A DNA stretch of 47,348 nucleotides from assembly GCF_000385215.1 (NCBI RefSeq), contig NZ_ARQK01000035.1:1-47348 (forward strand), in the 5' to 3' direction. Numbering within the stretch: position 1 is the first letter of the stretch; each line of letters begins with the position of its first letter. The stretch comes from Thioalkalivibrio thiocyanoxidans ARh2. GTDB lineage: Bacteria > Pseudomonadota > Gammaproteobacteria > Ectothiorhodospirales > Ectothiorhodospiraceae. Below, one piece after another: positions 41,108-47,348 of the stretch. Made by a program: the position numbers and the translations under genes. The notes beneath the pieces were generated by a model that was not told where the DNA came from, did not search any database, and was given only the letters and a program-made list of their open reading frames with translations.

Positions 41108-43969
41108 ATGGCACAGACCCCGTCGCACGAAATCAAGAACACCACCTGTTACATGTGCGCCTGCCGTTGCGGCATCCGGGTGCACCTGCGTGACGGGGAG
41201 GTACGGTACATCGATGGCAACCCCGAGCACCCGATCAACGAAGGCGTGATCTGCGCCAAGGGTGCCTCCGGGATCATGAAGCAGCATTCGCCGGCGCGGC
41301 TGACCCAGCCCCTGCGGCGCAAGGCCGGCGCCGAGCGCGGCGACGGCGAGTTCGAGCCGATCTCCTGGGAGGAGACATTCGAGATCCTCGCCGAGCGACT
41401 CGGACAGATCCGCGAGACCGACCCGAAACGCTTTGCGCTGTTTACCGGACGCGACCAGATGCAGGCCCTGACCGGGCTGTTCGCCAAGCAGTTCGGCACC
41501 CCCAACTACGCAGCGCACGGCGGCTTCTGCTCGGTGAACATGGCCGCCGGCATGATCTACACCATCGGCGGCTCGTTCTGGGAATTCGGCGGCCCCGACC
41601 TCGAACGCTCGAAGCTGTTCGTGATGATCGGCACCGCGGAGGACCACCACTCCAACCCGCTGAAGGTGGCGATCTCCAAGTTCAAGCGCCAGGGCGGTCG
41701 CTTTATCTCCATCAACCCGGTGCGCACCGGCTATTCCGCGATCGCCGACGAATGGGTCCCGATCCGCCCGGGGACCGACGGCGCCCTGCTGCTGGCGCTG
41801 ATCCACGAGATCATCAACAAGGGCCTGTACGACCGCGACTTCCTGGTACGCTACAGCAATGCCGGCCAGCTGGTGAACATGGACGAGGACCAGGACGAGT
41901 TCGGCATGTTTCTGCGCACGGAGGACCCGCCGGAAGAGGGCTGCTACGACGCGCAGAACCAGCTCTGGTGGGATCGCAAGACCGGACGGGCAGTGCCGAC
42001 CCATACCCGGGGGGCCGACCCCTTCCTGCTCGGGGAATTCAAGCTCGACGACGGGACCCGGGCAAAGCCCGCGTTCCAGCTGCTGCAGGACCGGGTCGCC
42101 GAGTACACCCCGGAATGGGCCGAGCGCGTCACCGGCATACCGGCCGAGGATATCCGCCGTCTGGCCCACGAGATGGGCGTGACCGCGCGCGATCAGCGCA
42201 TCGAGCTGCCGATCGCCTGGACGGACTCCTGGGGCGTCGAGCACGAGTCGGTCACCGGCAACCCGGTCTCCTTCCATGCGATGCGCGGGCTGGCCGCACA
42301 CTCGAACGGCTTCCACACCATCCGTTCGCTGTCGATCCTGATGTCGCTGCTGGGCACGATCGACCGCCCCGGCGGCTTCCGCCACAAGGCCCCGTTCCCG
42401 CGCCCGATCCCGCCCTGCGCCCGCACGCCGAAGGGGCCGGAGGGCGTGCAGCCCGGCAAGCCGCTGGACGGCATGGTGCTCGGCTGGCCGGCCAGCCCGG
42501 ACGACCTGTTCGTGGACGACAAGGGCGAGCCGGTCCGGCTCGACAAGGCCTTCTCCTGGGAGTACCCGCTGGCCGTGCACGGGATGATGCACAACGCGAT
42601 CACCAACGCCTGGCGGGGCGACCCCTACCCGATCGACACCCTGCTGATCTTCATGGCCAACATGGCGTGGAACTCGACCATGAACACGGAAGAGGTCCGC
42701 AAGATGCTGAACGACAAGGACGACAACGGGGAATACAAGATCCCGTTCCTGGTCGTGGCGGATGCCTTCCAGTCCGAGATGACCGCGTTTGCCGATCTGG
42801 TGCTGCCGGATACCACCTATCTGGAGCGCCACGACGTGATGTCGATGCTGGATCGCCCGATCTCCGAGTTCACCGGGCCGGTGGATTCGGTGCGCATCCC
42901 GGTGGTGCCGCCCAAGGGCGAGTGCAAGCCCTTCCAGGATGTACTGATCGAGCTCGGGTCGCGCCTGAAGCTGCCGGCCTTCGTGAACGAGAAGGGCGAC
43001 CGCAAATTCCGCGACTACCCGGACTTCGTGGTCAACTACGAGACCGAGCCGGGCTCCGGCATCGGTTTCCTGGCCGGCTGGCGCGGCAAGGGGGGTGAAA
43101 AATCCCTGCGCGGCGAGCCGAACCCCAACCAGTGGGAGATGTACGCGAAGAACAACTGCGTCTTCCAGTACGAACTGCCGCGCAGCTACCAGTACATGCG
43201 TAACTGGAACAAGGGGTATCTCGAGTGGTCGCAGCGCAACCGCATCACGCGCTATGGCGAGCCCGTCCTGATCCACCTCTACTCCGAGGTGCTGATGAAG
43301 TTCCGCGCCGCCGCCCAGGGCAAGGGGACCACGCGCAAGGTGCCGACGCACCTGGCCAAGCGCGTCGAGACCTTCTTCGACCCGCTGCCCTTCTACTACG
43401 ACCCGCTGGAACACCAGTCCACGGACAAGCACACCTATCCGCTGGCCGCGGTCACCCAACGACCGATGGCGATGTACCACTCCTGGGACTCCCAGAACGC
43501 CTGGCTGCGCCAGATCCATGCCCACAACCTGCTGTACGTGAACGCGCGCACCGCGCGGGCCGCCGGCATCGAGGACGAGGACTGGATCTGGGCGGAAAGC
43601 CCCTGGGGCCGGGTGCGCTGCATGGCCAAGTACTCGGAGGCTGTCGAGCCCGGCACCGTCTGGACCTGGAATGCGATCGGCAAGGCCGCGGGGGCCTGGA
43701 ACCTGACCCCGGGCGCCAACGAGTCACGCAAGGGCTTTCTGCTGAATCACCTGATCTCCGAGGAGCTGCCGGGGCATGACGGCCCGATCTCGAATTCCGA
43801 TCCGGTGACCGGTCAGGCGGCCTGGTATGACGTCCGCGTACGAATCTACAAGGCCGAAGAAGGGGAGCCGCAGGAGACCTCTCCCCAGTTCAAGCCGCTC
43901 AAACCGTATCCCGGCCAGTCCACACGGGCACGTGTTTTGAACTTCTTTGCGGGCCTGGGGAAACGCTGA
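41108..43969 (+). CDS. soeA: Sulfite dehydrogenase SoeA, molybdopterin catalytic subunit
   Basis: A 953-residue member of the DMSO-reductase family that oxidises sulfite straight to sulfate in the cytoplasm. The N-terminal [4Fe-4S] site is TTCYMCACRCGIRVHLRDG (Cys14, 17, 21) with the fourth Cys in GVICAKG. HGGFCSVNMAAG probably gives the molybdenum ligand Cys. There is no twin-arginine signal, which fits a cytoplasm-facing enzyme and separates it from exported PsrA/PhsA relatives. The ATG at 41108 has only a weak AAGG upstream. The last codons lie inside the terminal repeat of the element that follows. SoeB and SoeC genes are downstream, so SoeABC assignment is strong by context. Confidence 0.9.
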   Translation: MAQTPSHEIKNTTCYMCACRCGIRVHLRDGEVRYIDGNPEHPINEGVICAKGASGIMKQHSPARLTQPLRRKAGAERGDGEFEPISWEETFEILAERLGQIRETDPKRFALFTGRDQMQALTGLFAKQFGTPNYAAHGGFCSVNMAAGMIYTIGGSFWEFGGPDLERSKLFVMIGTAEDHHSNPLKVAISKFKRQGGRFISINPVRTGYSAIADEWVPIRPGTDGALLLALIHEIINKGLYDRDFLVRYSNAGQLVNMDEDQDEFGMFLRTEDPPEEGCYDAQNQLWWDRKTGRAVPTHTRGADPFLLGEFKLDDGTRAKPAFQLLQDRVAEYTPEWAERVTGIPAEDIRRLAHEMGVTARDQRIELPIAWTDSWGVEHESVTGNPVSFHAMRGLAAHSNGFHTIRSLSILMSLLGTIDRPGGFRHKAPFPRPIPPCARTPKGPEGVQPGKPLDGMVLGWPASPDDLFVDDKGEPVRLDKAFSWEYPLAVHGMMHNAITNAWRGDPYPIDTLLIFMANMAWNSTMNTEEVRKMLNDKDDNGEYKIPFLVVADAFQSEMTAFADLVLPDTTYLERHDVMSMLDRPISEFTGPVDSVRIPVVPPKGECKPFQDVLIELGSRLKLPAFVNEKGDRKFRDYPDFVVNYETEPGSGIGFLAGWRGKGGEKSLRGEPNPNQWEMYAKNNCVFQYELPRSYQYMRNWNKGYLEWSQRNRITRYGEPVLIHLYSEVLMKFRAAAQGKGTTRKVPTHLAKRVETFFDPLPFYYDPLEHQSTDKHTYPLAAVTQRPMAMYHSWDSQNAWLRQIHAHNLLYVNARTARAAGIEDEDWIWAESPWGRVRCMAKYSEAVEPGTVWTWNAIGKAAGAWNLTPGANESRKGFLLNHLISEELPGHDGPISNSDPVTGQAAWYDVRVRIYKAEEGEPQETSPQFKPLKPYPGQSTRARVLNFFAGLGKR

Positions 43970-44244
43970 ACAATGTACACACTCGCGTTGGCACCCCAGG
44001 TTTTCCGAGACAAGGCGCGGTGCGCAGCCGGTAGTGGTTCTACCGGCAAGAGCCGCAACGCAGGATCGGGGAACCTGGGGCGCCAACCCCACAACCCATT
44101 GAAAAGCAGGGGCTCGGCCGCTTTTGCATGCGCACGGCGTTGCGGCTCCCTTGTGCAGAGTGACTGCACGGCAGTCACCGCGCCTTGTTCGCACGCAAAA
44201 GCGACTCGAGCGCGAGTGCGCACATTGTGCAGCGTTCCCCCAGG
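43954..44244. repeat. Two-armed structured element with terminal inverted repeats between soeA and soeB
   Basis: Ends 43954-43987 and 44211-44244 are 34-bp imperfect inverted repeats (consensus end CCTRGGGAAACRCTGA). Between them are two hairpin arms. Arm 1 pairs 43987-44006 with 44068-44087 and has an apical 8-bp stem at 44027-44034/44040-44047. Arm 2 pairs 44112-44132 with 44190-44211 and has an apical stem at 44161-44167/44171-44177. Both arms keep the same inner motifs, ACAAGGCGCGG and GAGCCGCAACGC, while the stem sequences differ but stay complementary. The linker is 44088-44111. The right end abuts the soeB ribosome-binding site, and the left end overlaps the soeA stop codon. Confidence 0.82.
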
Positions 44245-44253
44245 AGGCAAGAA

Positions 44254-44985
44254 ATGACCCAACTCGCCCTCGTCATCGATCTCAACGTCTGCGTGGGCTG
44301 CCACGCCTGCGTGACCAGCTGCAAGGAATGGAACACCTCCGGCGATGCCGGCCCACTGGTCGACCAGAATCCCTACGACGCGGACCCCACCGGCACCTTC
44401 TTCAACCGGGTGCAGAGTTTCGAGGTGGGCGAATATCCGAACACCGAGACGGTGCACTTTCCGAAGTCCTGCCTGCATTGCGAGGAGCCGCCCTGCGTGC
44501 CGGTGTGTCCGACCGGGGCTTCCTACAAGCGCGAGTCGGATGGCATCGTGCTGGTCGACTACGACAAGTGCATCGGCTGCAAGTACTGCTCCTGGGCCTG
44601 CCCCTACGGCGTGCGCGAGGTGGATGCCGAGCGCAAGGTGATGACCAAGTGCACCCTGTGCGTGGACCGCATCTACAACGAAGAACTGCCGGAATGGGAC
44701 CGCAAGCCGGCCTGCGTGCGGGCCTGCCCGACCAATGCGCGGCTCTACGGCGATATCCATGACCCCGAATCGGTCGTCTCCAAGGCGATCCGCGAGGCGG
44801 GTGGCTACCAGCTGATGCCGGAATGGGGCACCAAGCCGGCCAACCACTACCTGCCGCGGCGCAAGACCCAGCTGACCATCCGCGAGGACGAGGTCGAACG
44901 CGCGGACAACCCGCTGAAGATCGACAGTCAGTTGCCGAAGCCCGGGCAGGACGAACCCTCGCTCGACGACGTCACCAGCTGGTAA
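44254..44985 (+). CDS. soeB: Sulfite dehydrogenase SoeB, four-cluster ferredoxin subunit
   Basis: A 243-residue electron-transfer subunit. Four cysteine groups for [4Fe-4S] clusters are seen: CVGCHACVTSC, CLHCEEPPCVPVC, CIGCKYCSWAC, and CTLC...CVRAC. The arrangement is that of DmsB/PsrB-type proteins, passing electrons from SoeA to the membrane subunit. Start at 44254 is set by AGGAGG 7 bases upstream and by the MTQLALVIDLNVCVGC beginning. It is separated from soeA by 284 bp filled by an inverted-repeat element, unusual for subunits of one complex. soeC follows after 17 bp. Confidence 0.92.
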   Translation: MTQLALVIDLNVCVGCHACVTSCKEWNTSGDAGPLVDQNPYDADPTGTFFNRVQSFEVGEYPNTETVHFPKSCLHCEEPPCVPVCPTGASYKRESDGIVLVDYDKCIGCKYCSWACPYGVREVDAERKVMTKCTLCVDRIYNEELPEWDRKPACVRACPTNARLYGDIHDPESVVSKAIREAGGYQLMPEWGTKPANHYLPRRKTQLTIREDEVERADNPLKIDSQLPKPGQDEPSLDDVTSW

Positions 44986-47234: not shown

Positions 47235-47348
47235 CCTAGGGAAACACTGATGAATGTACACGCTCGCGCTCGAGTCGCTCTTGCGTGCGAACAAGGCGCG
47301 GCGACTGCCGTGCAGTCATTCTGCACAAGGGAGCCGCAACGCCGTGCG
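47235..47348. repeat. Second copy of the structured repeat, cut by the window edge
   Basis: From CCTAGGGAAACACTGA (47235-47250) to the end of the window, this sequence matches the reverse complement of 44131-44244 with only a few differences (roughly 90 percent or more by eye). It has the same ACAAGGCGCGG and GAGCCGCAACGC motifs and the apical stem GACTGC/GCAGTC (47303-47308/47312-47317). It is the left end of another element whose right half lies outside. Its end touches the ribosome-binding site of the leftward 388-residue gene. Confidence 0.85.

Follow-up and report, generated by a model that had tools for sequence, protein, structure and literature searches.

A two-armed inverted-repeat element between soeA and soeB in Thioalkalivibrio, probably a MITE with IS5-family ends

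Background

Bacterial MITEs such as Correia/NEMIS, ERIC, RUP and QMITE2 are, in the available portions of their descriptions (PMC3733652, PMC10969869, PMC2229807), short sequences without a transposase that carry terminal inverted repeats, duplicate their target, give rise to stable hairpin transcripts and have copies adjacent to genes, and all of these features recur in the Thioalkalivibrio element described here. The CIR repeats of Caulobacter and Brucella, as presented in the accessible text of PMC2229807, consist of two hairpin arms and a linker, again as in our element. Insertion sequences (ISs) of the IS5 family are reported to use YTAR as their target, and those with YTAR targets resemble the element in both termini and target (PMC10359306, available sections). 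A further process of relevance is template-switch (quasipalindrome) mutation, which according to the available part of PMC8794818 yields complementary double changes in stems.

For Thioalkalivibrio itself, the K90mix genome paper treats transposases in general terms in its available text (PMC3368412). Among the papers listed by literature searches on Thioalkalivibrio inverted repeats, MITEs and transposable elements (one of them loose) none dealt with such a family, and among those listed for IS5-family MITEs with YTAR targets none had a title on Thioalkalivibrio, both in a literature from which subscription journals were mostly absent. Here, a soda-lake bacterium carries, between genes that elsewhere overlap, a noncoding element foldable into two hairpins.

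Results

The window, meaning the whole 47,348-nucleotide stretch of T. thiocyanoxidans ARh2 that was analysed, contains a gene for a soeA-type molybdopterin oxidoreductase (41108-43969, + strand) followed by one for a soeB-type 4Fe-4S protein (44254-44985, + strand). Molybdopterin, 4Fe-4S and DmsC/NrfD domains are detected in the operon; among the NCBIfam matches listed there is no Soe-named model and no family at cut-off, and the genes are presumably soe, a name assigned by the first-pass annotation. Between them lies a core of 281 bp (43959-44239, + strand) with A-type ends and arm 1 first in its interior, delimited by the family alignment and its boundaries and recognisable as an insertion from empty sites. 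The target-site region is represented on the left by CTGG (43955-43958), which is CTAG in the empty site of two other genomes (G011 and G021), and on the right by CCAG (44240-44243), assigned by comparison of flanks and empty sites. The terminal inverted repeats, compared over 24 bases, occupy 43959-43982 (+ strand) and 44216-44239 (- strand).

Hairpin arm 1 (43987-44087, + strand, inverted repeat I1), with the apex GGTAGTGGTTCTACC, has a fold z of -7.92. Arm 2 (44119-44203, + strand, inverted repeat I2) is seen in the fold of 44105-44215, which taken alone has a z of -3.12, with 1 of 200 shuffles equally good. Each arm contains the motifs ACAAGGCGCGGTG and GAGCCGCAACGC once; they are inverted between the arms and reverse-complementary at 100% (44010-44022 with 44176-44188, and 44050-44061 with 44137-44148). 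Folded as RNA, 43940-44260 reaches -181.2 kcal/mol (z -8.86), a value that none of 100 shuffles equalled; the opposite strand folds to -202 (z -13.81). The core is without an internal ORF of at least 120 aa; frames do run through it or start inside it. At gathering thresholds, 0 Rfam families scored above threshold in the whole window, and no promoter or intrinsic-terminator patterns were found in 43850-44350. A second family copy begins at 47240-47348 of the window and is truncated by the contig end.

The soeA stop codon (43967-43969) sits within the element, which ends at the soeB Shine-Dalgarno sequence AGGAGG (44242-44247), upstream of the soeB ATG at 44254; both points had been made by the first-pass annotation and are correct. 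Self-comparison and folding likewise bear out the inverted repeat, the two arms and the two common motifs that it had described. Its 34-bp terminal inverted repeats stand in part: an outer repeat does enclose both arms, but it is imperfect (72-75%), and the boundaries are better placed at 43959-44239 plus four-base flanks.

Of 30 genus genomes searched, 20 allowed a comparison of both sides of the soeA-soeB junction, which was filled in four (G000, the ARh2 genome itself, and G001, G024 and G029) and empty in 16. Where the element is absent, the stop of soeA overlaps the start of soeB by 4 bases (12 genomes) or by 1 base (4 genomes); where it is present, they are separated by 284 bases, or 299 in G024. 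In G011 and G021 the empty site is GCGGGCCTAGGAGG, as against GCGGGCCTGG-element-CCAGGAGG when filled; SoeA ends in FFAGLGGKK in these two genomes and in FFAGLGKR with the insertion. The element inserted into CTAG immediately 5' of the overlapping stop and start: element bases 9-11 supplied the new soeA stop codon, the soeB Shine-Dalgarno sequence was preserved, and a 4-base overlap became a 284-base hairpin-rich spacer.

The ARh2 genome (2.77 Mb, 61 contigs) holds 40 scored copies of the family with 76-100% identity, out of 95 candidates. Matches to the terminal 22 bases of the element, at no more than 3 mismatches, number 94 in this genome, against 0 with a reversed control, and the arm-1 apex matches exactly 48 times. 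Across 58 genomes, with at most 13 candidates scored per genome and absences accordingly not firm, the family was present in the ARh2 genome, in 15 of 29 congeners and in 0 of 7 genomes of the same taxonomic family, and 1 of 21 other members of the class gave a weak match (E 4.5e-4). Of 369 genomes from the class, three contain the exact arm-1 apex: the ARh2 genome, one congener and one with a stray single match. Named genome contigs contain at least 105 loci, the 80 listed being all from Thioalkalivibrio; the family was not found in the plasmid and phage records searched. Before counting, copies were excluded if either end was incomplete or the flank too short. The site rather than the strain name served as the unit of independence; some strain names may duplicate numbered genomes.

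The 132 distinct full copies range from 246 to 342 bp. Copies at orthologous sites vary in length (e.g. 266, 280 and 295) through hairpin-like arm inserts of ~15 bases, which suggests exchange between copies. A reversed one-armed derivative of ~126 bp, with family ends and arm 2 only, is present in G025 (L207, ~2821-2945). Several contigs of the ARh2 draft (G000; e.g. C11, C16, C30, C42 and C47) start within family copies. Since copies break the ARh2 draft assembly, the family is probably undercounted there.

The flanks of the 132 copies conform to YTAR. Of these copies, 52 have an exact 4-bp duplication (shuffled mean 21.8, maximum 31), which the other 80 lack; 5-bp duplications number five against a shuffled mean of 0.7, and no other length between 2 and 9 is in excess. 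Where an empty counterpart is available, 18 of 32 copies have the offset expected for 4 bp, a few of the 32 being orthologous and the soeA-soeB site being counted twice. The YTAR target and the modal 4-bp net duplication fit the IS5 family, although the duplication pattern is not clean.

Family termini are found at both ends of 8 of 31 transposase loci retrieved from the genus (genomes G011, G013, G021, G022 and G029), which were located via the transposase domain and not via paired long MITE ends; at 340-5000 bp apart, the sequences searched contained one such pair, 3.7 kb apart, in G001. This partner IS measures 1172-1222 bp as trimmed here (~1.2 kb), and its three copies in G029 are 99.8-99.9% identical. 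The transposase frame is open over 321 aa in one copy and scores 319 bits against the NCBIfam IS5 family (cut-off 140); an IS5-family transposase of G029 lies on the minus strand of L336 (1462-2427). The MITE and the IS have up to 17-18 terminal bases in common, with no detectable similarity of the MITE interior to the IS past ~20 terminal bases. The left end of the IS is A-like in 8 of 8 cases, and the right end is B-like in one and ambiguous in the other seven, of which two were badly trimmed. Direct, non-palindromic 4-bp repeats border the IS at two loci (GTAG in L342 and TAAG in L325). A B-type MITE copy (L324, 1002-1317) immediately adjoins an IS5-family element; the junction reads CTAG. 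The partner transposase domain had no match in the ARh2 draft, where contigs break at repeats and absence is thus not proven. An IS701-type domain (DDE_5) was rejected as the mover, having a single match in 30 genomes, with mismatched termini. An IS5-family transposase, or a relative of it, may have moved the MITE in trans via the matching ends.

The element could instead be moved by another type of enzyme without target duplication, its IS5 likeness being limited to borrowed ends. Such a reading, which we consider improbable, draws on the stronger conservation of the inner two flank bases (next to the element) than of the outer two, and on three sites with unequal flanks, soeA-soeB among them, at which the empty sequence consists of the outer pair of bases from the left flank plus the outer pair from the right; these three fit a duplication-free insertion of an element longer by two bases at each end. 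It is opposed by the excess of exact 4-bp duplications, one of them a non-palindromic CAAG/CAAG pair with an empty CAAG site, and by a partner IS that has the same termini and direct 4-bp repeats of its own.

The RNAalifold consensus of the 132 copies contains 76 pairs, and when column pairs are ranked by covariation, stem pairs make up 12 of the top 20 and 15 of the top 50 (Mann-Whitney p 1.7e-22, a value not derived from independent events, as the copies are related and the subfamily split gives part of the signal). One outer pair shows all four Watson-Crick types (A-T 72, G-C 19, C-G 16, T-A 12). The wobble pairs are strand-symmetric, with G.T in 80 and A.C in 97 cells among the pairs common to the folds of both strands, and both strands fold about equally well, the + strand being more stable in 58 of 132 copies. 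A wobble excess in the arms under the + strand fold was discarded as a signal: it is mirrored in the fold of the other strand, and is therefore a product of pair selection.

Over 126 independent sites, a copy's own two ends are mismatched at 1.40 of 24 bases, compared with 5.99 when the ends come from different copies, and the same tendency holds within subfamilies (of 20 bases, 0.75 vs 2.43 in A and 0.67 vs 1.41 in B). By end type, 83 of the 126 sites are A/A, 41 B/B and 2 ambiguous, with 0 clear A/B. Rare end alleles are present at both ends 22 times (expected 0.74) and at one end 44 times. Rare paired changes are scarcer in the arms (arm 1: 12 at both sides, 122 at one; arm 2: 5 at both, 61 at one). 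Orthologous copies differ at 15 end positions altered at one end, 4 of which are adjacent in one copy and probably reflect one event, and at 1 position altered at both, the latter in comparison with an ALJ16 copy that has different flanks and may be a separate insertion. Ends matched per copy, combined with one-sided drift between orthologues, imply that matching arises between insertions and then decays.

End matching of this kind is compatible with template-switch correction, with ends being rewritten during transposition, or with movement that requires the ends to match. Template switching in resident copies predicts two-sided changes between orthologues, and as these are hardly seen, the orthologue counts speak against it. 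The covarying stems may well represent concerted evolution of inverted repeats at the DNA level, possible routes being template-switch or hairpin-templated correction, or a requirement of matched ends for mobility. Covariation, which the first-pass annotation had inferred from one copy, is supported on 132 copies, but its description as the mark of a selected fold was too strong, as concerted DNA-level change of the inverted repeats explains it at least as well.

Orientation relative to transcription was assessed with gene calls made for this analysis by hexamer scoring and left uncurated. At the 66 tandem sites out of 126 (19 edge, 2 intragenic and 39 convergent or divergent sites being left out), the + strand of the element runs with the co-directional neighbour genes in 52 (p 2.8e-6). 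A stricter test, with genes called per flank and 25 of the 126 sites excluded for short flanks, gave 41 vs 12 of 53 (p 8.2e-5). The bias was 40:7 in subfamily A and 12:7 in B; an earlier block count that included orthologues had stood at 19 vs 2 of 21. Replication strand gave no clear fit as its cause, with 16 sites on the same and 10 on the opposite side of the skew-defined strand (26 sites in long blocks). As symmetric ends should give the transposase no choice of orientation, selection after insertion is the likely cause. The bias is left unexplained by DNA-level processes and hints at effects on transcripts, which keeps a transcript-level effect of the element possible; a precedent for orientation-dependent effects on mRNA is given by ERIC in the accessible text of PMC2229807. 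In 43 of the 66 tandem insertions the element sits no further than 15 bases from the upstream stop codon, perhaps owing to the inclusion of TAG and TAA in YTAR.

Discussion

We conclude that the soeA-soeB element is very probably a MITE with IS5-family ends, presumably moved by a transposase acting in trans, and that its stems are best taken to reflect concerted DNA-level evolution and not an RNA regulating the operon. It is short and noncoding (281 bp, in a family of 246-342 bp with a few copies >300, the usual range being about 70-300), shares its terminal inverted repeats with an autonomous IS and belongs to a family with dispersed copies and empty sites. A MITE-like mobile element was one of two readings offered by the first-pass annotation, and it is the one that has held up: further copies were found (40 scored in the ARh2 genome, and the family in 15 of 29 congeners), 16 of 20 soeA-soeB sites are empty, 4-bp duplications at YTAR are in excess, and the termini recur on IS5-family elements in congeners. 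In our view the family is a true MITE family of IS5 type whose interior has two arms, and we found no description of it.

The other reading was a structured cis-acting RNA selected to adjust SoeA against SoeBC. The element is indeed placed for co-transcription, has a very stable fold and follows the direction of its neighbours at 52 of 66 family sites. A functional structured RNA would be expected to show strand-specific covariation and conservation at its locus, and neither was found: the site is filled in 4 of 20 genomes only, the family has many copies elsewhere, the wobble pairs do not distinguish the strands, and orthologous ends change one-sidedly in 15 cases and two-sidedly in 1. An RNA regulator at soeA-soeB is hence unlikely, and we give little credence to a conserved function of this type. 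Least probable is a REPIN-like repeat mobilised by a REP-associated tyrosine transposase, a reading prompted by the symmetric hairpin organisation and by the GTAG-tagged REPs of Thioalkalivibrio sp. K90mix (PMC3733652, available text), as REPs are palindromes of 20-40 bp, against 246-342 bp here, and the long terminal repeats of the family are shared with an IS of the DDE-transposase type.

Returning to the IS5-type MITE, it may be, as a tentative idea that we would not expect to hold in full, that a DDE-transposon-derived element has its ends rewritten to match at transposition through a hairpin-like intermediate, in a manner reminiscent of LTRs, and that the surviving copies are mainly those transcribed one way. 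Matched ends and orientation bias are the parts of specialist interest, and the many copies and empty sites would permit direct tests of both end matching and transcription-aligned orientation. More generally, a striking structure in an energy-metabolism operon is explained here by a mobile element whose insertion disrupted a stop/start overlap, and it offers a natural example of strong base-pair covariation that need not imply a functional RNA.

Compared with known systems, template-switch mutation acts on resident sequence (PMC8794818, available part), whereas orthologous copies of the MITE change almost only at one side. The GTAG REPs of K90mix, as described in the accessible portion of PMC3733652, are a class different from the Thioalkalivibrio MITE. 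CIR repeats are described without terminal inverted repeats in the available text of PMC2229807, unlike our element, which has them and of IS5 type. Compared with IS5-family ISs, the MITE is without a transposase gene and has only ~20 terminal bases in common with them. From Correia/NEMIS, ERIC, RUP and QMITE2, finally, it is set apart by two arms inside its terminal repeats, by its GC-richness and by ends that are matched in each copy, whereas Correia elements have mixed end types.
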